Assembly: GCF_001861355.1 (NCBI RefSeq)
Contig: NZ_MASN01000018.1
Span: 1-64,000, forward strand
Length of the DNA: 64,000 bases
Source of the DNA: Natrialba sp. SSL1
GTDB lineage: Archaea > Halobacteriota > Halobacteria > Halobacteriales > Natrialbaceae
Reading direction: 5' to 3'
The notes beneath the pieces were generated by a model, which worked only from the letters and a program-made list of their open reading frames with translations, ran no database searches and had not been told where the DNA came from. Each line of letters starts with the position of its first letter. Position 1 is the stretch's first letter. Shown here one piece after another: positions 933-52,878 of the stretch. Position numbers and translations under genes: made by a program.

Positions 933-2417
933 ATGGACGGCGACTCCCCCGACCATCTATCCGCACCGCCCGACCGTGATGGACCGGTAGCACGCACACC
1001 GACGGCCGCACACGAGGTCGCACTCGAGTGCCTGCTCGCGGGGATCGAGGCGGCTCGGCCCGATGAGCGAATCGCGGAGACCTGTACAGTGGCAAACGAC
1101 GTGCTAACCGTGACGGACGTGACCGGGAGCGAAAGCGACACAACCTCGTACGATCTGTCACAGTACGAACGGATCACGGTCGTTGGCGGTGGGAAGGCGG
1201 CTGCACAGCTCGTATGCGCGCTTGAAACGGAGTTCGAGGGGAGCGCCGTTATCGAAGACCGACTTACGACGGGCGTCGTCGTGACCGACAACCCGGTCGA
1301 GAGCGACATCGTCGCTGTTCGTGAGGGAGCGCACCCGATTCCGAGTGAAACCGGTGTTCAACACACGAAGCAGGTGCTCGAGGCCGCAGCGGCTGCCGGT
1401 GAGAACGAGTTACTGCTCGTTGTCGTCACTGGCGGCGCGAGTGCGCTGCTCGCTGCGCCAGCCGCGTCACTCTCGGTGTCCGACCTGCAGCAGGTGACGA
1501 CGGCCCTGCTTGGTGCCGGTGCACCGATCGACGAGATCAACGCCGTCAGAAAGCACTGCTCGGCGATCAAGGGCGGTCAACTCGCCCGAACCGCGGCACC
1601 TGCAACCGTCGTCACGCTCGCGCTGAGCGATGTCGTCGGTGATGATCCCAGCGTGATCGGCAGCGGACCGACGGTACCGGACCCGACAACCTACGGCGAC
1701 GCACTCGCCGTCCTCGAGCGCTACGAGATCGACGCACCCGACGCCGTCGTCGCCCACCTCGAGCACGGCCACGCCGGAGCACTCCCGGAGACGCCAACGC
1801 TCGAGACGGACGCCAACTGCTTCGATCGGACGAGCACACACGTTATCGGAAACGGGCGCGTCGCACTCGAGGCAGCCCGTGACGCCGCACGCGATCGGGG
1901 GTACACACCACTCGTGCTCGCCTCACGTGTCCGCGGTGAAGCCCGCGAGGCGGCCCAGACACACGTCGCCATCGCCGAAGAGTGTCGCCGCACCGGCGAG
2001 CCGTGTTCCCCGCCTGCCGTTCTCCTCTCCGGTGGCGAGACGACCGTAACCCTCTGTGAGGAGCCCGGTCGCGGCGGGCCAAACCAGGAGTTCGCACTCA
2101 CGAGCGCGCTTGCACTCGAGTCCGACGGCATCGTCGTCGGCAGTGTCGACACCGATGGTATCGACGGCACAACCCATGTCGCGGGTGCGCTTGTGGACGC
2201 GACCACAGTGGGACCGAGTGCGCTCGAAGCAGACGGCGAGTCCGATCAAAATCGAGGGCGAACGCGGACGGACGCCCACGATGCACTCGCGCGAAACGAT
2301 GCGTGTGCCGTCCTCGAGGACGAAGAGGCACTTGTCCGAACTGGTCCAACCGGAACGAACGTCAACGATCTCCGGGTACTGGTCGTCGAGCCGTCCTCGC
2401 CGTCAGAAGAACTCTGA
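933..2417 (+). CDS. Glycerate 2-kinase, MOFRL/DUF4147 type
   Basis: A 494-residue homologue of the MOFRL-family glycerate kinases, which phosphorylate glycerate (to 2-phosphoglycerate in the archaeal enzymes) and feed it into lower glycolysis. Family marks are GGGKAA near residue 86, the GGASALL segment near 165, NAVRKHCSAIKGG near 200, SDVVGDDPSVIGSGP near 230, and the C-terminal MOFRL domain with LLSGGETTVT and GGPNQEF near 365-395. Two family-typical domains are present at full length. A short Asp/Arg-rich insert (SDQNRGRTRT) near residue 440 looks like a lineage-specific expansion. The ATG at 933 fits the upstream TATA element. Neighbouring genes face away or are far, so it is probably monocistronic. 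Confidence 0.88.
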   Translation: MDGDSPDHLSAPPDRDGPVARTPTAAHEVALECLLAGIEAARPDERIAETCTVANDVLTVTDVTGSESDTTSYDLSQYERITVVGGGKAAAQLVCALETEFEGSAVIEDRLTTGVVVTDNPVESDIVAVREGAHPIPSETGVQHTKQVLEAAAAAGENELLLVVVTGGASALLAAPAASLSVSDLQQVTTALLGAGAPIDEINAVRKHCSAIKGGQLARTAAPATVVTLALSDVVGDDPSVIGSGPTVPDPTTYGDALAVLERYEIDAPDAVVAHLEHGHAGALPETPTLETDANCFDRTSTHVIGNGRVALEAARDAARDRGYTPLVLASRVRGEAREAAQTHVAIAEECRRTGEPCSPPAVLLSGGETTVTLCEEPGRGGPNQEFALTSALALESDGIVVGSVDTDGIDGTTHVAGALVDATTVGPSALEADGESDQNRGRTRTDAHDALARNDACAVLEDEEALVRTGPTGTNVNDLRVLVVEPSSPSEEL

Positions 2418-2744
2418 GTCACTCTCAGTCTCGACTGGGCAGAGAGCACCGTTTGATACAGTCAATTTACAATCTTACGACTGTAAATGGTGGCGAAGAG
2501 CAGTCGAATCGATGCGACTCGTACTCTCTTATCTGTCCGTCTCGTTGGCAACAGAGGACTACAGATATGATTCACACCTGGGATGAAGAAGAAAGAGACA
2601 GGAACAAGATAAGTAGGAAAAGCGGATAGTCAGCGGCTCGAGAACGCAGCGACAGCTCCGTCGACAACCCTCGCATTACGGACGTATTGCTGTAAACACC
2701 GCGGTCGGAACGCTTTTCTCGCTCACTGGAGTACCGTTCGGACA
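2418..2744. other. Intergenic region with an inverted repeat
   Basis: No gene seen. An inverted repeat ATTTACA (2465-2471) / TGTAAAT (2482-2488) is nested with ACAGTC (2457-2462) / GACTGT (2479-2484). It lies just after the glycerate kinase stop, so it may be a transcript-end structure or an operator. The promoter of the downstream GTG-started gene is weak; the only T-rich stretch at the right distance is CGCTTTTCTC near 2711-2720. Confidence 0.35.
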
Positions 2745-3383
2745 GTGACCGAGCGAACTCTCGACGCAGCGGCGAGTTCAGCGTGTGGCTGCAAGGTCGG
2801 ACGGATCGCCGAGCAGTACGATCTGATCGGGCTGGACGAGGAACTCGTTAGCTACTGGACCGACAGAACCGACGACCGATACAGCACGCGAGACCTCGCA
2901 GAACACGTCAACCAACGTGTGCTCGAGGCCGCCCTCGACGACGCAGGGCTGCAGTACAAAGACGGCGAGGTCGAGAACACGTACCGGCTGCTCACCGGCG
3001 ACGACGTCAGCAGCGGGACACGCGTCCAGACACGCAAGGAACTCGAGCGCGACGCCGTCCCAGTCGAGGACGTCGAGAGCGATTTCGTCTCGCACCAGAC
3101 CGTCTACAACCACCTGACGGGCTGTCTCGAAGCCTCGCTCGAGTCGCCGAGCGACGAGGAGCGACTCGAACGTAGCCGAAATAAACTCGGCGCGCTCCGA
3201 AACCGGACCGCAGCGGTGACGGAGGATACGGTCGCCCAACTCGAGCGAAGTGACGTCCTCGATATTGGGGAGTTCAACGTCCTCGTGACGGTGACGGTGA
3301 CCTGCGAGGACTGCAAACAACAGTATACGATCCGCGATCTGCTGGACCAGGGTGGCTGCCGGTGTGCGGAGTCAGACGAGTAA
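2745..3383 (+). CDS. rdfA: RdfA-like rod-determining factor
   Basis: This 212-residue acidic soluble protein resembles haloarchaeal RdfA, a factor needed in Haloferax volcanii to form or keep rod-shaped cells. I recognise it from the N-terminal CGCKVGRI with YDLIGLDEELVSYWT, the ENTYRLLTGDDVSSG segment near residues 82-97, and the following DFVSHQTVYNHLT. The C-terminus carries four cysteines in CEDC and CRC form, a possible metal site. It starts with GTG; no better ATG lies upstream in frame. It is isolated from its neighbours. The assignment rests on remembered family motifs, and the biochemical activity of the family is not known to me. Confidence 0.65.
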   Translation: MTERTLDAAASSACGCKVGRIAEQYDLIGLDEELVSYWTDRTDDRYSTRDLAEHVNQRVLEAALDDAGLQYKDGEVENTYRLLTGDDVSSGTRVQTRKELERDAVPVEDVESDFVSHQTVYNHLTGCLEASLESPSDEERLERSRNKLGALRNRTAAVTEDTVAQLERSDVLDIGEFNVLVTVTVTCEDCKQQYTIRDLLDQGGCRCAESDE

Positions 3384-42248: not shown

Positions 42249-43607
42249 TCAGTCGTCGTCAGTCGCCTCGAACGCCGCCTCCGTGCGCTGTGCAGCCTGC
42301 GTTCGTTCCAGCAGCGACGGCCCATCCTCGTCGCCGAAATCGGGATCGAACAGCTGCAAGGCAGTGTTGATCGTACTCCAGTCGTCCTCGGCTGCGGCCT
42401 CCCGCAGACTCCGCGTCGGCGGCGCGAGCAACTGATTCACCAGCGCGTCGGCCATCGCCTCGACAACCTCGCGCTGGGCCGGCGTGAACGACTCGCCCTC
42501 GAGTTGGGAGAGCGCCGTCTCGAGCTCCCGCTGTTTGATCCGGGCCGCGGATTCGTACATCGCGCCGATGACCTCGTCGGCGCGGGCGCGCTTGTACTGC
42601 TCACAAAGCAGGTCGAACTCGTGGTCGATCATCGCCTCGACCTCTCGTGCAGCGTCGGCGCGCTGCTCGCGCGTCTCCTCGGTAATCGTCTCGAGGTCGT
42701 CTAAGTCGTAGACCGTAACGTCGTCGAGTGCGTCGATCGCCGGATCGACGTCTCGCGGTTGGCCGAGGTCGACGACGACGCGTTCGTCTTCGGGCGTTGA
42801 TGCAGCGTCCTCGCCGTCCGTCCCGACGAAGTGCTGCCGGCCGACCACCGGCTCGTCGCTGCCGGTCGCTGCCACGATCACGTCCGCGCTCGTCGCGAGC
42901 GTGTCGAGGGACTCGAGTGGAACCGCACGAACATCGTCGTGCTCGATGTCCGAGAGGAGGTGTTCGGCGCGCGAGACGGTCCGGTTCGAGACGACGAGTT
43001 CGTCGACGCTGGCGTCGGCGAGGCTGCGTGCGGCCAGTTGCCCCATCTCGCCTGCACCGACGACGAGTGCGTTCGCGCCCTCGAGCGGGAGCGTCTGGCC
43101 GGCAAGTCGGGTCGCGGCCGAGCCGAGCGAGACGACGCCCTCGTTGATCTCGGTCTCGGTTCGGGCGCGTTCGCCGACGTGAATCGCCTTCGTGACGGCC
43201 GGTTCCAGCATGGTGCCGATACCACCGGCGGCGCGGGCGTCCTCGTAAGCTGTGCGAACCTGGCCGATGATCTGGTCCTCGCCGAGGACGACGGACTCGA
43301 GTCCGGCTGCGACGCGAAGCAGATGTGTGAGGCTGTCGTCGTGGTCGGTGATAACGAGTGGGTCATCGTCATCGACACCAGCGAAGAATTCAGAGAGCGC
43401 TGTGCGGCCGATGACGGGGTCGGCGGAAACGACGTATGCTTCGACGCGGTTGCACGTCGAGAGCACGTACGCCTCGTCGATCTCGGGCACCGAGCAGAGA
43501 TCCGCGACGGCAGCCTGCTGGCTGTCCGGACTTGCGGCCGCGAGATCGTCGACGGTCCCGCTCTCGTGTGTGACGCGACCCGCGGTGACGACACCCGCCG
43601 GAATCAC
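42249..43607 (-). CDS. hemA: Glutamyl-tRNA reductase
   Basis: A 452-residue enzyme that reduces glutamyl-tRNA to glutamate-1-semialdehyde, the first committed step of tetrapyrrole synthesis. The catalytic Cys is Cys52 in LSTCNRVEAYV. GLESVVLGEDQIIGQVR near 102-118, the NADPH site ALVVGAGEMGQLAARSL near 183-199, VSNRT, and the C-terminal dimerisation helices (EFDLLCEQYKRARADEVI) complete it. It is the last gene of a three-gene operon; its ATG overlaps the stop of the precorrin-2 dehydrogenase by four bases. Confidence 0.96.
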   Translation of the reverse strand: MIPAGVVTAGRVTHESGTVDDLAAASPDSQQAAVADLCSVPEIDEAYVLSTCNRVEAYVVSADPVIGRTALSEFFAGVDDDDPLVITDHDDSLTHLLRVAAGLESVVLGEDQIIGQVRTAYEDARAAGGIGTMLEPAVTKAIHVGERARTETEINEGVVSLGSAATRLAGQTLPLEGANALVVGAGEMGQLAARSLADASVDELVVSNRTVSRAEHLLSDIEHDDVRAVPLESLDTLATSADVIVAATGSDEPVVGRQHFVGTDGEDAASTPEDERVVVDLGQPRDVDPAIDALDDVTVYDLDDLETITEETREQRADAAREVEAMIDHEFDLLCEQYKRARADEVIGAMYESAARIKQRELETALSQLEGESFTPAQREVVEAMADALVNQLLAPPTRSLREAAAEDDWSTINTALQLFDPDFGDEDGPSLLERTQAAQRTEAAFEATDDD

Positions 43608-44260
43608 GGCTGCTCACCCTTCGATAGATAGTCCTCGCCCAGCACGTCCTCAATCACTTGTCGTGCATTCGGATCTCCAGCACGTAAAGCTGTCCAAACC
43701 GCCGGAGAATTGACGACATCGGTGACGAGCTCGCGCCGGCGGGCCGATGGCACCTCCTGTGCCTTGAGTTCCGCGCGCAACTCGCCACAGAGCGTCGCCA
43801 TTTCGCCCGCGCCCTCGAGTGTCTCCTCGAGTTCCTGTCGCAGGTACTTGCTCAGCGCGGGAGCGGTGCCGCCGGTCGCGATGGAGACGACGACGGGATC
43901 CTCGCGGACCGTCGCGGGGACGACGACGCTGCCCGGGTCGCGGTCGCCGGCCCGATCAGCGCGGTTGACGAGGACGCCACGCTCGCGGGCCGCGGTGACG
44001 ATTGCGTCGTTGACCGCTTCGTCGTCGGTTGCGGCGACGACCAGCGCCGGCGTCGTGCGCTCGAGCCAGCCCGGAATTTCGTCGGGGGCGGGGGTAGCAC
44101 GACAGCGTTCAGCGCCGCCGAACTCACTAGCTGCGAAGTCGGGACTGACGACGATCACCTCGGCCTCTCGAGCGAATCGGCGGGCCTTCCGCGCGCCGAC
44201 GGGACCGCCGCCGAAGATCAACACCGTCGCGTCGGCAAAGTCGTGGAGGAGTGGAATCAT
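43604..44260 (-). CDS. Precorrin-2 dehydrogenase / sirohydrochlorin ferrochelatase-like
   Basis: A 218-residue NAD-dependent enzyme oxidising precorrin-2 to sirohydrochlorin. The N-terminus MIPLLHDFADATVLIFGGGPVGARKARRF is a Rossmann site, followed by EVIVVSPDF and VAATDDEAVNDAIVTAARERGVLVN near 75-100, then FASIATGG-like VSIATGGTAPALSKYLRQELEE near 135-157, the CysG N-domain core. It is translationally coupled to hemA. With AhbA/B upstream, it supplies siroheme for the alternative heme route. Confidence 0.92.
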   Translation of the reverse strand: MIPLLHDFADATVLIFGGGPVGARKARRFAREAEVIVVSPDFAASEFGGAERCRATPAPDEIPGWLERTTPALVVAATDDEAVNDAIVTAARERGVLVNRADRAGDRDPGSVVVPATVREDPVVVSIATGGTAPALSKYLRQELEETLEGAGEMATLCGELRAELKAQEVPSARRRELVTDVVNSPAVWTALRAGDPNARQVIEDVLGEDYLSKGEQP

Positions 44261-44291: not shown

Positions 44292-45377
44292 TTACTCGGT
44301 CCGCGTATTCGCGGCCGCGCGCTCGTCGAGCCTGATTCCGGTCTTCTTCAAAATCTGCGTCGAGAACAGCGAGTCCCAGTCTTCGTCCGTGACGTCCCAA
44401 TACTCCGTCATCGTATCGCGAACCTGCTCGATCCGGCGCTCGCTCTCTGCCTCGCTGCGGCCGTGCGTCATCGCGAAGAAGTTGTACGGCCAAACACCCT
44501 CGTGGCGCGGGCGCTCGTAACAGTGTGTGACGAACGGCAGCGAGGCGATTTCGGGACCGACCTCGCCCACAAGGTCGTCCGGGACGTTCCAGACCGTCAT
44601 CCCGTTCTCCGTGTAGCCGAGTGCGTAGTGGTTCGGCACGACGCCAATGCGTCGGATCTTCCCCTCCTGCTCGAATCGCTTGGCGGTTTGGAGGACCCAC
44701 TCGAGTTCCTGTCCGATGGCGTCAGCCACGTCGGCGTACGGCGTCTCGGTGAGCGGCAGGCCGTCTTGGATCTCGAGGACGAGGTCACGTTCGGCGGGCG
44801 ACAGCGTGGACTCGTCGCGTAGCTGGACGTCAGGCCCCAGTTTCGTGAGATCGATGCCGGCGTCCGTCTCGTTCTCACTGGATCCATCGAGTGGGCCGTC
44901 CACGTAGAACTTCGCCTCGACGCGGAACTCCTGTTGCTTGGGCAGGTTGTACGTCTCCTGGCCGGTTTCGTCCTCGATTGCAGCGAGCACCTCGGAGACC
45001 CGCTGCTCGTCTGCGACACTCACGACGAACCAGACGTTCAGATGCGGGTGCTCGCGCTCGTAGTTGTGCGCGACCTCGCGGTGGGCGTTGACCTGCTCGA
45101 CGACCTCGTCGAACCGGTCTTCGGGGGCGTGCATCGCGACGAGCGTCGCCGCACCGCCGATTTCCTGGGCGTTGACCAGCGGGCCGAACCGGGAGAGGAC
45201 ACCGCGCTCGTCCAGATCCTGGACCGTCTCGAGTAGCTCCGTCTCATCAATATCGACCCCGCGGTCGCGCATGGCGCTTGCAGCAGGTTCGAAGGGGCGT
45301 TCCACGACGGGGAAGCCGCCCTGATAGGCGTTGACGACGGCCCGCTCGCGATCCGTGAGGTCGACGTCGGCGTTCAT
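44292..45377 (-). CDS. Siroheme decarboxylase, AhbA-AhbB fusion
   Basis: A 361-residue protein made of two Lrp/AsnC-like halves, which in bacteria and archaea are AhbA and AhbB or NirD/L/G/H. It removes the acetate carboxyls of siroheme to give 12,18-didecarboxysiroheme on the alternative heme pathway. Half one spans about 1-150 (ERAVVNAYQGGFPVVERPFE, RFGPLVNAQEIGGAATLVAM), half two about 190-330 (LVLEIQDGLPLTETPYADVA, RRIGVVPNHYALGYTENGMTVWNVPDD, CYERPRHEGVWPYNFFAMTHG). The linker is low-complexity. It begins the operon; the radical-SAM genes that finish heme are not in the window. Confidence 0.88.
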   Translation of the reverse strand: MNADVDLTDRERAVVNAYQGGFPVVERPFEPAASAMRDRGVDIDETELLETVQDLDERGVLSRFGPLVNAQEIGGAATLVAMHAPEDRFDEVVEQVNAHREVAHNYEREHPHLNVWFVVSVADEQRVSEVLAAIEDETGQETYNLPKQQEFRVEAKFYVDGPLDGSSENETDAGIDLTKLGPDVQLRDESTLSPAERDLVLEIQDGLPLTETPYADVADAIGQELEWVLQTAKRFEQEGKIRRIGVVPNHYALGYTENGMTVWNVPDDLVGEVGPEIASLPFVTHCYERPRHEGVWPYNFFAMTHGRSEAESERRIEQVRDTMTEYWDVTDEDWDSLFSTQILKKTGIRLDERAAANTRTE

Positions 45378-47263: not shown

Positions 47264-48241
47264 ATGAAGCGGTGGTTTCGTCGACGCGTCGATGCAGCGT
47301 ACGAGCGGTTGCTCTCCCGTGAGATTTCCGGTGCACCAACCCACGTCGCCGTGATTCAGGACGGGAACCGACGGTACGCCCGCCAGCACGGCGGCGACGC
47401 CCACGAGGGCCACCGCGCCGGTGCCGATACGACCGAGCGGGTACTCGAGTGGTGCCAGGATATCGGCGTCGAGGAGTTGACGCTGTACACCTTTTCCACG
47501 GAGAACTTCAATCGCCCTGAAGACGAGCGTGAGGCGCTGTACGAACTGCTCTGTGAGAAGTTGACCGAGTTCGCAGACGCCGAACGGGTGCACGACAACG
47601 AGGTCTGTATCCAGGCGATCGGTGAAATCGACCTGCTCCCTGAACACGTCCGGGACGCCGTTGCATATGCCGAGCGCCGCACACAGGAGTACGATCAGTT
47701 CGTACTCAACATTGCACTCGCCTATGGCGGTCGGTCACGACTGCTCGAAGCCGCTCGCGGCGTCGCAAGAGATGTCAACGCGGACGAAATCGACCCCGAC
47801 GAAATCGATGTCGAGACGATCGAACAACGGCTGTACGATCAGCCAGTTCGAGACGTCGATCTGATTATTCGTCCCGGTGGCGAGGAACGAACATCGAACT
47901 TCCTCCCCTGGCACGCGAACGGCAACGAGGCAGCCGTGTTCTTCTGTACGCCCTACTGGCCCGAGTTCTCGAAAGCCGACTTCCTGCGCGGAATTCGAAC
48001 CTACGAACACCGCAAGGAATCCTGGCGGCGCACGCGCGCTCGGCGCGCGATTGCCCTGCTCGGGGCGGTCAGCGAACCGGAGCTAACCGACGCACAGGCG
48101 GTCGTCAATCGATTCCGTGATTCACTCCCAGTTGGTGAACGTCCTGCGGGTGTCGACCGGGAGACGACGGCCGTTGCTGACTCCGGTGAGACCACAACGA
48201 GCGACGACGGGCTGGACTCGAGTAGCCGAGCAGCAGACTGA
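47264..48241 (+). CDS. uppS: cis-Prenyltransferase (UppS family), catalytic subunit
   Basis: A 325-residue enzyme of the undecaprenyl/dehydrodolichyl diphosphate synthase family, making the polyprenyl carrier used for archaeal glycosylation. The diphosphate loop HVAVIQDGNRRYARQHG (Asp33-Gly-Asn-Arg-Arg37), ELTLYTFSTENFNRP near 72-86 and DLIIRPGGEERTSNFLPWHANGNEAAVFFCTPYWPEF near 202-238 are all intact. The C-terminal RXG found in homodimeric enzymes is absent; instead the chain continues with EHRKESWRRTRARRAI and an acidic tail. A second, degenerate homologue lies 0.8 kb downstream on the opposite strand. ATG 47264 is the natural start. Confidence 0.92.
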   Translation: MKRWFRRRVDAAYERLLSREISGAPTHVAVIQDGNRRYARQHGGDAHEGHRAGADTTERVLEWCQDIGVEELTLYTFSTENFNRPEDEREALYELLCEKLTEFADAERVHDNEVCIQAIGEIDLLPEHVRDAVAYAERRTQEYDQFVLNIALAYGGRSRLLEAARGVARDVNADEIDPDEIDVETIEQRLYDQPVRDVDLIIRPGGEERTSNFLPWHANGNEAAVFFCTPYWPEFSKADFLRGIRTYEHRKESWRRTRARRAIALLGAVSEPELTDAQAVVNRFRDSLPVGERPAGVDRETTAVADSGETTTSDDGLDSSSRAAD

Positions 48242-48279
48242 CCTGAAGCCGGGTTCTTTCAAGACGAGCTATAGTAGCC

Positions 48280-48343
48280 ACTGCAAGTCACTGCACACCT
48301 GATCGCCAGCCTGCTCGGCGATCAGTGTGTGAATCGTTGCAGT
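48280..48343. repeat. 64-base inverted repeat downstream of uppS
   Basis: Nested arms: ACTGCAA (48280-48286) / TTGCAGT (48337-48343), CACAC / GTGTG, and TGATCGCC (48300-48307) / GGCGATCA (48317-48324) with a nine-base loop. There is no T-run after it. It could be a transcript-end structure or a protein-binding site. A ten-base direct repeat ACTGCACACC occurs at 48290 and 48353. Confidence 0.65.
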
Positions 48344-48443
48344 TGTTCCTATACTGCACACCGCTGCACTGCCTGTTTGCGGCCAAACGTGTTGTCCAGA
48401 TAACCAGAAGTATTTTATTAATTAGTATGACAATAGTAGCTGA

Positions 48444-48830
48444 ATGTCGTCTGCCACCGCTCCCGTCGACGTCGAACGGTTCGTACGGTTGACGGACGTT
48501 GCACTCGACGACGCGTATGCGCTTCTGGCAAACAGCCGGCTGCGCGTCGTCCTCCACGTCCTCTCCGCGTGTGACGCACCCGTTTCAGTCGACTGGCTCG
48601 CCGAACGCACCAGCCAGTGGGATGACGATCCACAGGAGACGGTCACGGCCGAACTCGTCCACAACATCCTGCCGAAACTCGACGACCACCGGATACTCGA
48701 GTACGATGCGCGATCGGAGATCGTTCGAATGGACGATCCAGTGGTCGCGTTCGAGCACCCGCAGTCGGAGTCGCTACTGGTGTCCGTCACTGAGGGGTGT
48801 GAGTCAGCAGCCCGAACGCGGTCGGGGTAG
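48444..48830 (+). CDS. DUF7344-like winged-helix protein
   Basis: A 128-residue haloarchaeal helix-turn-helix protein: LDDAYALLANSRLRVVLHVLSACDAPVSVDWLAERTSQ near 21-58 and ELVHNILPKLDDHRILEYDARSEIVRM near 70-96, the same layout as the DUF7344 gene at 45.5-45.9 kb. It is too divergent to be a recent duplicate. No sensor domain. It lies between the two prenyltransferase genes and could regulate them, which is only inference from position. Confidence 0.7.
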   Translation: MSSATAPVDVERFVRLTDVALDDAYALLANSRLRVVLHVLSACDAPVSVDWLAERTSQWDDDPQETVTAELVHNILPKLDDHRILEYDARSEIVRMDDPVVAFEHPQSESLLVSVTEGCESAARTRSG

Positions 48831-49014
48831 CGAGAAGCCACGGTCGAGAGTGAGATGGCGGTTGGGATCAAGACAGAGGTGAGACTGTGACGGACACGAA
48901 GACGAGGACGAACACGAGGACCAACAATGGGAGCGACGCGCGAACATGAGGATTGGCTGAATTGCTGAAGAACGCGAAAGCGGCGAGAGACGTACAGTGC
49001 ACGCGAAGGTGACG
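48831..49014. other. Short intergenic stretch between convergent genes
   Basis: A purine-rich GAGGAC/GAACACGAGGACC stretch (about 48895-48930) and nothing further recognisable. Confidence 0.3.
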
Positions 49015-49620
49015 TTACCGACCGAATCGCCGTGAGCGATTGCAGTACTCCCTGACAGCGCGCAGGAAGTCTCGTTTGCGGAAATCGCGCCAGTTAACGT
49101 CAGTAAAGTACAGTTCAGAGTAGACGGACTGCCAGATCATGAAGTCAGAGAGCCGCTCTGCGCCGGTTTTGATGACCAGATCGGGCTCCGAGGGAAAGAC
49201 CAGATGGTCCTCGACACGGTCGTCGTCGATGGCGTCCGGTTCGAGCGTTCCCTCCTCGACGCGTTCTGCGAGCGTTTGGACTGCACTCGTGAACTCGTGT
49301 TTCCCACCGAGGCCGATTCCGATCTGGATCGGCGCGTCCGCTGGGTCCCGGTCGTCCGGTCCGCGGACCGCAACGTCACGGGGTGCTTCGATCGTCTCGA
49401 GTTCGCGTCGCAGCGCGGGGACCGCCGCGGCGTCGAGGACGCTGACGTAAACGGTGACGCGGTCGGCGTACTCGAACGCCCAGTCGAAGAACTCGACGAG
49501 CGTCTCGTAGGCACCGCGTTCAAGCAGGTCGCGTTCGGTGATGACGAGTGCGATGTGCTCAGGGAGGGCGGCGTCGTCCCGGCTGATGCGGCGAGCCAGG
49601 TAGCGTTCGTACAGTCCCAC
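49015..49620 (-). CDS. Degenerate UppS-family protein, probable non-catalytic cis-prenyltransferase subunit
   Basis: A 201-residue homologue of UppS without its active site. At the diphosphate loop, DGNRR is replaced by ITERDL in HIALVITERDLLER near 20-33. The C-terminal half is close to bacterial UppS: DLVIKTGAERLSDFMIWQSVYSELYFTDVNWRDF, and it ends RRFGR with the RXG motif at residues 198-200. In eukaryotes NgBR/Nus1 has just this combination. GTG 49620 is supported by a TATA-like CTGTATAGTATC about 28 bases upstream; the longer frame to 49716 has no family sequence. Confidence 0.8.
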   Translation of the reverse strand: MGLYERYLARRISRDDAALPEHIALVITERDLLERGAYETLVEFFDWAFEYADRVTVYVSVLDAAAVPALRRELETIEAPRDVAVRGPDDRDPADAPIQIGIGLGGKHEFTSAVQTLAERVEEGTLEPDAIDDDRVEDHLVFPSEPDLVIKTGAERLSDFMIWQSVYSELYFTDVNWRDFRKRDFLRAVREYCNRSRRFGR

Positions 49621-49782
49621 AGGTCGGCTTCCGCGTCCGATACTATACAGGTTACGGGTCACTCTCACTGGCTGTACAGTCCCAGTCTGGGGATCGGCGC
49701 GGACAGGACCTGTCACCCGTGAAACGAGGCGGCGGCGTGTTCGGGAACCTTCAAGTAACCGCCACAGAAAGACACCGGTATC

Positions 49783-51141
49783 GTGACATCACCCGTTCGG
49801 CGAGCCGGCGTCTTCGCGGCGCTGAGTACGCTGGTACTCGCCGTGCCGCTCGCTGGGATCGAGGTCGCGACCGCCGTCGCAGCGGTGGTCTTACTCGGCG
49901 CGTTCCTCGTCACGGACGGCCCGCTCTTCGAGCTGGTGGCCTATCCCGGAGACTACGAGGACCGCCGTCTGTACGGCCTCATCACGTTCGTTCTCGCAGC
50001 CGTTGCACTCGGCCTCGTCGCGTTCAACACCTCGATGTCGACTGCGGTTCTCGTCGGCACTGTCCTCCTCGTTGGCTACGGCAACCTCGCAGAACGGCTC
50101 GTTCGTTCCCGCTCCGAGAACGACGTGCTCGCGGTCACTGCGTTCTGTCTCGTCGCGACCGTGGCCGCAGTCCTCGGCCAGGTCGTGACGCTGCTCGCAC
50201 TGTCTGGCGGACCTGGGACCGCCGCGGCTACCGCGACCATCGAATCCGCCCTGCCGAGCGTGCTCTTTCTCGCAGCCAGCGGGGCGCTTCTCGCGGCACT
50301 CTTGCGCGATGTCTTCCTGATCTACGACGATCCCGTCGTCATGCTCTCTGCCGGCTTTCTGCTCTGGCTGCTCGCCGAACTCGATCCTGGCCTCGGAACC
50401 GTCGACATCGTCCTCGCACTCGCGATCACCGCCCTGCTGGGATACGTCTCGTACGCACTCGAGACGGCCTCCATCGCAGGCATGATCACCGGCGTCCTCC
50501 TCGGCCTGCTCACCATCGTCCTCGGCGGCTACGCCTGGTTCGCCGTTCTCATCGCCTTCTTCGGCATCGGCGGCCTCTCGACGAAGTTCCGCTACGGCCG
50601 TAAGGAGGAACTCGGCGTCGCCGAGGACAACAACGGTGCTCGCGGCAGCGGCAACGTTCTCGGCAACGCCGCCGTCGCCATCGCCGCCGTTCTCGGCTAC
50701 GCCGCGAGTCTGGCCGGGCTGTTACCGGTCACCGCCGACCTCTTTCTGTTCGCCTTCGCCGGCTCCGTCGCGACCGCGATGAGCGACACCCTCTCGAGTG
50801 AAGTCGGGAGCGTCTTCGAGACGCCACGACTGATCACCACGCTGGAGCCGGTCGAACCCGGCACCGACGGCGGCGTGACCTGGCAGGGTGAGGTCGCCGG
50901 CCTCGCCGGTGCGACCATCGTCGGCGGACTGAGCTACCTGCTCTTTCCCGCCGTCGGCGGCCTCGGCGCGGCGATCATCGTCGCGGCCGGCTTCGTCGGG
51001 ATGACCGTCGACAGTCTACTCGGGGCGACACTCGAGGGCTCACTGCTCGGCAATCAGGGGGTCAACTTCCTCGCGACGCTCTCCGGTGCGGTCGTCTGTG
51101 CGCTGTTGCTGGTGGTGTTTTCTGGCGCGCTCCTCGGCTGA
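49783..51141 (+). CDS. DUF92 membrane protein
   Basis: A 452-residue membrane protein with about twelve helices. The C-terminal half (about 210-452) is the DUF92 domain (GMITGVLLGLLTIVLGGYAWFAVLIAFFGIGGLSTKF, then GRKEELGVAEDNNGARGSGNVLGNA and FVGMTVDSLLGATLEGSLLGNQGVNFLATLSGA). DUF92 includes plant VTE6, a phytyl-phosphate kinase. The N-terminal half is polytopic like dolichol-kinase relatives. A role in phosphorylating polyprenol is a reasonable guess, given the adjacent cis-prenyltransferase subunit with a shared intergenic of 162 bases. GTG 49783 is leaderless by TATA spacing. Confidence 0.8.
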   Translation: MTSPVRRAGVFAALSTLVLAVPLAGIEVATAVAAVVLLGAFLVTDGPLFELVAYPGDYEDRRLYGLITFVLAAVALGLVAFNTSMSTAVLVGTVLLVGYGNLAERLVRSRSENDVLAVTAFCLVATVAAVLGQVVTLLALSGGPGTAAATATIESALPSVLFLAASGALLAALLRDVFLIYDDPVVMLSAGFLLWLLAELDPGLGTVDIVLALAITALLGYVSYALETASIAGMITGVLLGLLTIVLGGYAWFAVLIAFFGIGGLSTKFRYGRKEELGVAEDNNGARGSGNVLGNAAVAIAAVLGYAASLAGLLPVTADLFLFAFAGSVATAMSDTLSSEVGSVFETPRLITTLEPVEPGTDGGVTWQGEVAGLAGATIVGGLSYLLFPAVGGLGAAIIVAAGFVGMTVDSLLGATLEGSLLGNQGVNFLATLSGAVVCALLLVVFSGALLG

Positions 51142-51233: not shown

Positions 51234-52679
51234 TTAGCTCGGCGGCTCACTCGCTACGTCCTCAATCGCGTGAATCTGCACGCCCGAGGGCCGCTTCGTA
51301 AACTGCCCGAGCGATTTGGCGATGATCCGCTCGACACCGCGGTCAGCCGCTAGATCGAGGAGCTGCTGACTGAGGATGCCATCGAGCACGACCGTCGTCG
51401 GAACCGACTCGAGATCCTCGAGATCGTCGAACACGTCACTCGCCTCGATTTCGTCGATGACGTCGTTCTCGTCGTCCAGGTATCGGACGCGGTCCGTGTC
51501 CGAGCGGATGATCGCGGTTGCGTGTTCGTAGACCGTTTCGAGGTCGTTCGGATCCGACTCAGCGTCGGCCGCTGGTTCGGGGTGTTGTTGGCCGTCTCCC
51601 TCGGAGTGGGCTGCGTCCCCGACACCCGGTGCCGTTTCCGTTGCCGTTGCCGTTGCATCCGCGGTGTCCGCTGGAGCCGTCGCAGAGTCGGTCGAACTCA
51701 CGTTTGCACGAGCACGCTCGGTCTGGTCGGTCGTCCCAGCAGTCCGTGTAGACTCCGGTTCGGTCGACCCAACCTGCGTTCCACTGCGGGCAAGGCCCGT
51801 TTTGGCGTTTGTTCGTGCCGGCGCTGGACTCGAGCTGCCGTCCGTCGCAGCCACCGCCTCGCGGGGCTCGTTCAACCCGGAGACGGTGTCGTAGGGGACC
51901 TTGTTCCGAAGTGAGGTGAACAGCTGATGGTGGTCGAGTTCTTCGACAGAGGTTCCGGATGGGGCGAACGCGACGTAGTCGATATCGCCGACCTGCGAGA
52001 GCTCTTCGAGAATGAGGTCACCACCCCGGTCACCGTCGAGAAAGGCTGTGACGGTGCGGTGGTTCGTCAGTTCGGCAACGGCATCTGGGATGTTCGTCCC
52101 CTCGACCGCGATGGCGTTTTTCACGCCGTACTTGAGCAGCGTGAGCACGTCCGAACGTCCCTCGACGACGATGATCGCGTCGCTGTCTGTGACGCGCGGG
52201 CCGGCGGGCAGCCCTTCGTACTCTGTAATATCCTCGACGCGGACGTGCTGGCGCACCTCCGCAAGAATCTCCTCGGAGGACATGACGGAGTCGTCGAAGC
52301 CGGTCCGCAGGAGTTCCTTCGCACGGTCGACGACCTCCTTTCGTTTGGCCGCTCGGACATCCTCGATCTCGCGGACCTCGAGTGTCGCGCGGCAGGGGCC
52401 GACTCGAGTGATGGTCTCGAGGGAGGCGGCGAGGGTCGCGGTTTCGACCTTGTCCAGGCTGGTCGCGATGGTGACGCTGCCGTGAGATTGGCCCTGTGTG
52501 CTTGCGATTTCGACGTCGATGCGTCCGACTTTCTGTGACTGACGGAGGTCGCGCAGATCGAGTTCGTCGCCGAGGAGGCCTTCGGTCTGGCCGAAGATTG
52601 CGCCGACGACGTCGCTGCGCTCGACGACCCCGTCAGCCGTGACGTCCGCGTGAATGAGGTATTTCGAGGTGTCTTCCAT
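51234..52679 (-). CDS. dnaG: DNA primase DnaG, archaeal type
   Basis: A 481-residue archaeal DnaG. The Toprim core is VVEGRSDVLTLLKYG near 171-185 (catalytic Glu173) and TAFLDGDRGGDLILEEL near 211-227 (Asp215 and Asp217), with ITEYEGLPAGPRVTDSDAII ahead. The N-terminal domain (EDTSKYLIHADVTADGVVERSDVVGAIFGQTEGLLG) starts the family normally. Residues ~275-400 are a Thr/Ala/Asp-rich linker (TADATATATETA) not found in short homologues, and the C-terminal globular end DDLEDLESVPTTVVLDGILSQQLLDLAADRGVERIIAKS follows. In archaea this protein has been linked to the exosome. ATG 52679. Confidence 0.95.
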   Translation of the reverse strand: MEDTSKYLIHADVTADGVVERSDVVGAIFGQTEGLLGDELDLRDLRQSQKVGRIDVEIASTQGQSHGSVTIATSLDKVETATLAASLETITRVGPCRATLEVREIEDVRAAKRKEVVDRAKELLRTGFDDSVMSSEEILAEVRQHVRVEDITEYEGLPAGPRVTDSDAIIVVEGRSDVLTLLKYGVKNAIAVEGTNIPDAVAELTNHRTVTAFLDGDRGGDLILEELSQVGDIDYVAFAPSGTSVEELDHHQLFTSLRNKVPYDTVSGLNEPREAVAATDGSSSPAPARTNAKTGLARSGTQVGSTEPESTRTAGTTDQTERARANVSSTDSATAPADTADATATATETAPGVGDAAHSEGDGQQHPEPAADAESDPNDLETVYEHATAIIRSDTDRVRYLDDENDVIDEIEASDVFDDLEDLESVPTTVVLDGILSQQLLDLAADRGVERIIAKSLGQFTKRPSGVQIHAIEDVASEPPS

Positions 52680-52878
52680 GGGAGATCTGCCCCAGACGGG
52701 GCGCGGTGACGCGAGAGTCGCGTGCAGAGACCGGGTTACTGAAGATTTGGGTCGTGAACGGCAAATAGCTGTTGACATTCGGGACCGCTGTGGGGTTCGG
52801 AGACTGGACGGGGAGTCACGGTGCTGTCTGTCACTGTCAGTGGAGCCGGGAGCAGGCAACCCCGTTCGTTGCCGAGCG

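Follow-up and report, generated by a model that had tools for sequence, protein, structure and literature searches.

Two complementary cis-prenyltransferase homologues in Natrialba and throughout its archaeal phylum: a probable heteromeric enzyme of the DHDDS/NgBR kind

The cis-prenyltransferases (cPTs) include enzymes that keep their active-site motifs in one chain and enzymes that divide them between two. In undecaprenyl diphosphate synthase (UppS) of E. coli, a single protomer holds both the DGNRR diphosphate site and the RXG motif, whereas in the eukaryotic heteromer, human DHDDS (Rer2 in yeast) combines DGNRR with a C-terminal helical extension and lacks RXG, and its partner NgBR (NUS1; Nus1 in yeast), from which the substrate site is missing, ends in R-x-G-x. 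In the structure of the human enzyme, where NUS1 ends RLGK, the backbone of L291 and G292 holds phosphate, the terminal carboxylate of K293 contacts Arg37 and Arg85 of DHDDS, and DHDDS displays a C-terminal helix-turn-helix unseen in other cPTs (PMC7573591). Among archaea, MM_0618 and MM_1083 of Methanosarcina mazei constitute a heteromeric cPT with C45-50 products (Emi et al. 2019, cited in PMC8131916). Here, we describe two cPT homologues, of 325 and 201 amino acids (aa), encoded in a 64,000-nucleotide stretch of the genome of the haloarchaeon Natrialba sp. SSL1 (contig NZ_MASN01000018.1, positions 1 to 64,000; hereafter, the window). Between them, the two, which we call the catalytic and the accessory subunit, respectively, retain the motifs of one UppS active site, each having the part that the other lacks, and they very probably make up a single obligate heteromeric cPT that produces the polyprenyl diphosphate precursor of a dolichol-type glycosyl carrier, the lipid on which sugars are brought to proteins.

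A first-pass annotation, made from the DNA letters alone, had reported that the 325-aa gene has DGNRR without a C-terminal RXG, that the 201-aa gene reads ITERDL in place of DGNRR, keeps the ELYFTDVNW block and ends RRFGR, and that both cluster with a DUF92 gene; open reading frames, Pfam matches and alignments agree with every coordinate and motif that it gave. The 325-aa protein matches the cPT family PF01255 over positions 1-216 of 219 (Pfam, E 4e-68), and the match of the 201-aa protein covers only positions 117-219 (E 7e-26), so that the latter lacks the N-terminal half of the family and keeps the C-terminus; its GTG start is backed by dozens of relatives that start at the same residue of M-G-L-Y-[ED]-x-Y-L. 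Neither protein combines DGNRR and RXG in one chain, as a homodimeric UppS does, and neither ends in TLGG or belongs to the clade of the homodimeric M. mazei enzyme MM_0014.

This partition of motifs is not peculiar to the window. Homologues were collected from haloarchaeal genomes of all 58 genera, 45 other genomes of the phylum and 80 named loci, yielding unique sequences of 146 catalytic and 186 accessory proteins for alignment; the residue numbering follows an E. coli UppS sequence, the middle and C-terminal part of which agree with PDB alignments, and the human DHDDS and NUS1 sequences used for comparison agree letter for letter with PDB entries. DGNRR is invariant in the catalytic proteins (146/146), as are all six positions D26, N28, R30, S71, N74 and R77, so that the complete substrate site (DGNRR plus S-x-E-N-x-x-R) is kept; the same six are lost in the accessory proteins, 19 of which retain an isolated Asp at position 26 with the rest of the motif absent. 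Conversely, the alignment contains no in-register RXG in any of the 146 catalytic proteins, whereas R242 and G244 of this motif are invariant in the accessory proteins, one Lys excepted, and the accessory chain ends exactly with R-X-G plus one residue in 185 of 186 cases, the remaining one ending K-F-G-K. Glu169 of the ELYFTDVNW block, the equivalent of E. coli Glu213, is present in all 186 accessory proteins, and a W-Q motif is likewise invariant. Such a partition, unvarying across 146 plus 186 unique homologues, is far beyond chance. A loss of the Glu213 equivalent from the catalytic subunit was also considered and dropped, the alignment at this point being ambiguous on account of an insertion of two residues (GNEAAV). 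The genome that encodes the K-F-G protein (L184, genome G162) contains an MM_0014-type gene as well as two copies of the catalytic gene.

The two genes also occur together with great regularity. The genome from which the window comes, 99.5% complete, contains exactly two PF01255 genes, both at this locus, and because there is no other, no self-sufficient UppS was found in it; it encodes an AglB-type oligosaccharyltransferase, well above the cut-off, and therefore needs a glycosyl carrier lipid. The first-pass annotation had proposed co-occurrence across haloarchaea as a check on its heteromeric reading, and a widespread accessory gene without a catalytic partner as the finding that would speak against it. 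At least two PF01255 genes are present in 144 of the 145 genomes of the class, spanning 58 genera, and exactly two in nearly all; an accessory gene without a catalytic match was seen only in the single remaining genome (G072, in 120 contigs), where an assembly gap is the simplest explanation. Together with the invariant complementary losses, this pattern supports the heteromeric reading. Searches with the accessory protein recovered an orthologue in each of the 63 genomes covered, and the accessory gene is present in 58 of 58 genera. Phylum-wide, 117 of 119 genomes have a PF01255 match, with the pair pattern in nearly all; the two exceptions belong to one family, f17, in which none of five genomes (G151, G159 and G257-G259; 75-91% complete) has a PF01255 gene, both subunits being absent together. 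Exactly one gene of each kind is found in Methanosarcina spelaei, Methanohalophilus euhalobius, Halobacterium salinarum, Haloarcula vallismortis and Natrinema altunense, among others. Four haloarchaeal genomes (G068, G105, G061 and G098; L131, L133-L136) have two copies of the catalytic gene among a total of three PF01255 genes, and the haloarchaeon G002 has a third, divergent cPT gene (L132, minus strand, about 1911-3010) with DGHRR and the tail SLRRNEGR that is of neither subunit type.

The accessory proteins form one clade (bootstrap/SH-aLRT 100/100), and so do the catalytic ones (99/94), the two subunits being paralogous by profile comparison (99.9%). Given that each kind is a single clade and that the same families turn up in the two subtrees, the most economical interpretation is one duplication and split that took place no later than the base of the phylum. 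MM_0014-type genes constitute a third, separate clade; those ending in TLGG also occur outside the Methanosarcina family (L155 in G145, L157 in G235). Genomes of that family have a catalytic and an accessory gene that fall in the same two clades as the haloarchaeal ones and, in some cases, an additional MM_0014-type gene (E 5e-80 to 7caq, the MM_0014 structure). Of the three M. mazei cPT paralogues, MM_0014 is the third kind, so that MM_0618 and MM_1083 must between them be the catalytic and accessory genes, in either order, an assignment by elimination and not by direct comparison. The heteromeric cPT of Methanosarcina that the first-pass annotation had mentioned is on record (MM_0618 plus MM_1083, cited in PMC8131916), and it shares with the window pair the phylum, the two-gene partition and a role in glycosyl carrier lipid (C45-50). 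The two cases differ in that M. mazei has the homodimeric MM_0014 in addition, whereas the genome of the window has no such enzyme, and in that the two genes are unlinked in the Methanosarcina-family genomes fetched, whereas in the window they lie 0.8 kb apart, tail to tail. MM_0014 and its relative MA1831 resemble the 325-aa protein as archaeal cPTs of the same phylum without RXG; however, they have a short tail ending in TLGG, accept DMAPP and alcohols, and are orthologues of neither window subunit. The pair is best read as belonging with the heteromeric cPTs already known in M. mazei and eukaryotes, with an action like that of DHDDS/NgBR; what is new is the phylum-wide universality and the strictness of the partition, together with a possible inheritance of the eukaryotic enzyme from the archaeal one. 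A literature search, from which subscription journals were mostly missing, found no earlier description of haloarchaeal cPT subunits.

By analogy with the human and M. mazei enzymes, which suggest the complex, the tail acting in trans and the product, a mechanism can be proposed. The 325-aa subunit would bind the allylic primer and isopentenyl diphosphate (IPP) through Asp33, Asn35, Arg37 and the S-T-E-N-F-x-R block, and would hold the growing chain. The 201-aa subunit, with no substrate site and with helices presumably too short for a tunnel, would stand in for the second UppS protomer, its C-terminal R-F-G-R tail crossing the dimer interface into the active site of its partner, where the Arg, the Gly backbone and the chain end may complete the binding of IPP and Mg-diphosphate. 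The predicted structures are compatible with such roles. The accessory monomer model (58-row alignment; pLDDT 84.7) adopts the cPT fold, its tunnel helices being shortened; the tail is disordered when modelled alone (last residue pLDDT 34), as might be expected of a tail that becomes ordered on a partner. The catalytic monomer model (pLDDT 81.0) has C-terminal helices, 237-268 and 271-283, beyond the fold; in the fold comparison, it is closest to chains of DHDDS from the human heteromer, with about 300 columns aligned at a root-mean-square deviation (rmsd) of about 8 A, a value at which the placement of the helices is not reproduced.

Several observations weigh against an obligate heteromer. 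Yeast Nus1 lacks the canonical Arg of RXG; the subunit genes are convergent and do not form an operon, so that gene order does not imply co-expression; and an R-x-G one residue out of register is present in 3 of the 146 catalytic tails (L149, L146 and L147). These three are short tails. Furthermore, MM_0014, with its TLGG end, is an active homodimer, so that RXG is not strictly needed for cPT activity (PMC8131916), and human DHDDS alone is weakly active (PMC7573591). Both facts lend themselves to an alternative, namely, that the 325-aa protein functions as an RXG-less homodimer in the manner of MM_0014, with the 201-aa protein as a separate regulator or pseudoenzyme. We consider this improbable, given that it offers no reason for the RXG at the exact chain end in nearly all accessory proteins or for the strict co-occurrence, that the catalytic tail, instead of offering a TLGG-like substitute, continues as a helical extension, as in DHDDS, and that the equivalent M. 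mazei pair is heteromeric. The diverged N-terminal half and the missing substrate site of the accessory protein might instead be taken as signs of a decaying paralogue without any function at the enzyme, a notion to which we assign next to no probability and which, judging from the sequences, is already contradicted by conservation: the retention of one accessory clade throughout the phylum and in all genera sampled, its C-terminus, Glu169 and W-Q motif being invariant, points to strong purifying selection.

The relationship between the heteromer proposed here and that of eukaryotes is a separate question, of origin and not of function. The accessory profile matches human NUS1 over its full length (E 1e-11; hhalign 96.5%), and NUS1 reads LVITEVEQ in the alignment where the accessory protein reads ITERDL. 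A search of the PDB with the N-terminal half of the accessory protein alone recovered no cPT or NUS1 match, so that the likeness of this half to NUS1 rests on the profile and full-length comparisons. NgBR further differs from the 201-aa protein in its N-terminal membrane part and strong divergence, and the eukaryotic DHDDS/NgBR products are longer, C70 and over. Conceivably, although we hold it only tentatively, the archaeal pair and DHDDS/NgBR descend from one ancient heteromer, the split site of dolichol synthase being an archaeal inheritance of eukaryotes; if so, the split site would not have arisen in eukaryotes in connection with very long chains. In favour of this scenario, a thinned tree pairs accessory proteins with NUS1 (support 75) and catalytic proteins with DHDDS (85), DHDDS groups with the archaeal catalytic subunits apart from the accessory ones (90/81), the substrate site is replaced in a similar manner (LVITE), and the accessory chains of both end R-X-G-X. 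We lean, however, towards independent, convergent splits in archaea and eukaryotes: in single-sequence searches, the C-terminal half of the accessory protein gives a better match with bacterial UppS (E 1e-24) than with NUS1 (E 0.02), human NUS1 sits on a very long branch in a 117-row tree, and a forced grouping of DHDDS with NUS1 in the thinned tree was not rejected (p-AU 0.57).

If the two genes do encode one heteromer, as we believe, several implications follow. The findings suggest that an entire archaeal phylum, including the model organism Halobacterium salinarum, relies for its glycosyl carrier lipid on a split enzyme resembling the human one, a conclusion at odds with the single annotation 'undecaprenyl diphosphate synthase', which implies a homodimer of the bacterial type. 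The rule that ties heteromeric cPTs to long-chain products is countered by the M. mazei heteromer with its C45-50 products. The archaeal subunits offer small relatives of DHDDS and NgBR for study, and the origin of the eukaryotic heteromer becomes testable. The patient mutation R290H of NgBR falls within the RXG motif.

The features of the locus are collected in the table.

Table. Features of the cis-prenyltransferase locus in the window (window coordinates)
Feature	Position	Strand	Basis
Catalytic cPT subunit, DHDDS-like, 325 aa	47264..48241	+	ATG start; PF01255 match; predicted model
DGNRR diphosphate/Mg site, residues 33-37 of 325-aa protein	47360..47374	+	alignment of 146 catalytic homologues
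Position expected for RXG in homodimeric UppS; RKESWRR in 325-aa protein	48011..48031	+	alignment
Accessory cPT subunit, NgBR/Nus1-like, 201 aa, GTG start	49015..49620	-	PF01255 C-terminal match; model; NUS1 profile match
ITERDL in place of DGNRR, residues 27-32 of 201-aa protein	49525..49542	-	alignment with E. coli UppS, DHDDS, NUS1
ELYFTDVNW block, residues 169-177 of 201-aa protein	49090..49116	-	Glu169 aligns to E. coli Glu213
C-terminal RXG (R198-F199-G200) of 201-aa protein, then R201 and stop	49021..49029	-	alignment of 186 accessory homologues
Short intergenic stretch between accessory and DUF92 genes (divergent)	49621..49782	.	open reading frame coordinates
DUF92/COG1836 membrane protein, candidate isoprenoid kinase	49783..51141	+	PF01940 E 3e-58; divergent from accessory gene

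The arrangement is retained among haloarchaea, where the catalytic and accessory genes lie tail to tail in 52 of 63 loci, with a median of 520 bases between stop codons, and 56 of 63 have a DUF92 gene in head-to-head orientation to the accessory gene; the corresponding figures for other neighbouring genes range from 0 to 47 of 62 loci. Beyond the haloarchaea, these linkages are partial, in 16 and 20 of 45 genomes. The link between DUF92 (arCOG02245) and uppS is itself not new: Makarova et al. 2015 (PMC5898192) noted the same conserved neighbourhood and proposed a kinase step in isoprenoid metabolism, although that paper, in the passages concerned with this neighbourhood, treats uppS as one gene, without two complementary subunits, whereas the window locus has two. 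From the linkage and this suggestion, the DUF92 protein is predicted to be a candidate polyprenol/isoprenoid kinase. Its residues 1-214 are a region unrecognised by Pfam, which found no Sec59-like domain in this N-terminal part; such a domain has been described at the N-terminus of a Methanosarcina DUF92 relative (PMC5898192).

As for other genes in the window, a DUF7344 gene (48444-48830) lies between the two subunit genes; of 62 haloarchaeal loci, just 6 have a relative near the pair, and these all belong to the family of the window genome. DUF92 is followed by a Toprim-domain gene (DnaG-like primase, 51234-52757), which 47 of the 62 loci have in the vicinity of the accessory gene. Elsewhere in the window, a gene for a siroheme decarboxylase NirDL-like/AsnC protein adjoins a siroheme synthase-like gene (44292-45377 and 43604-44260).

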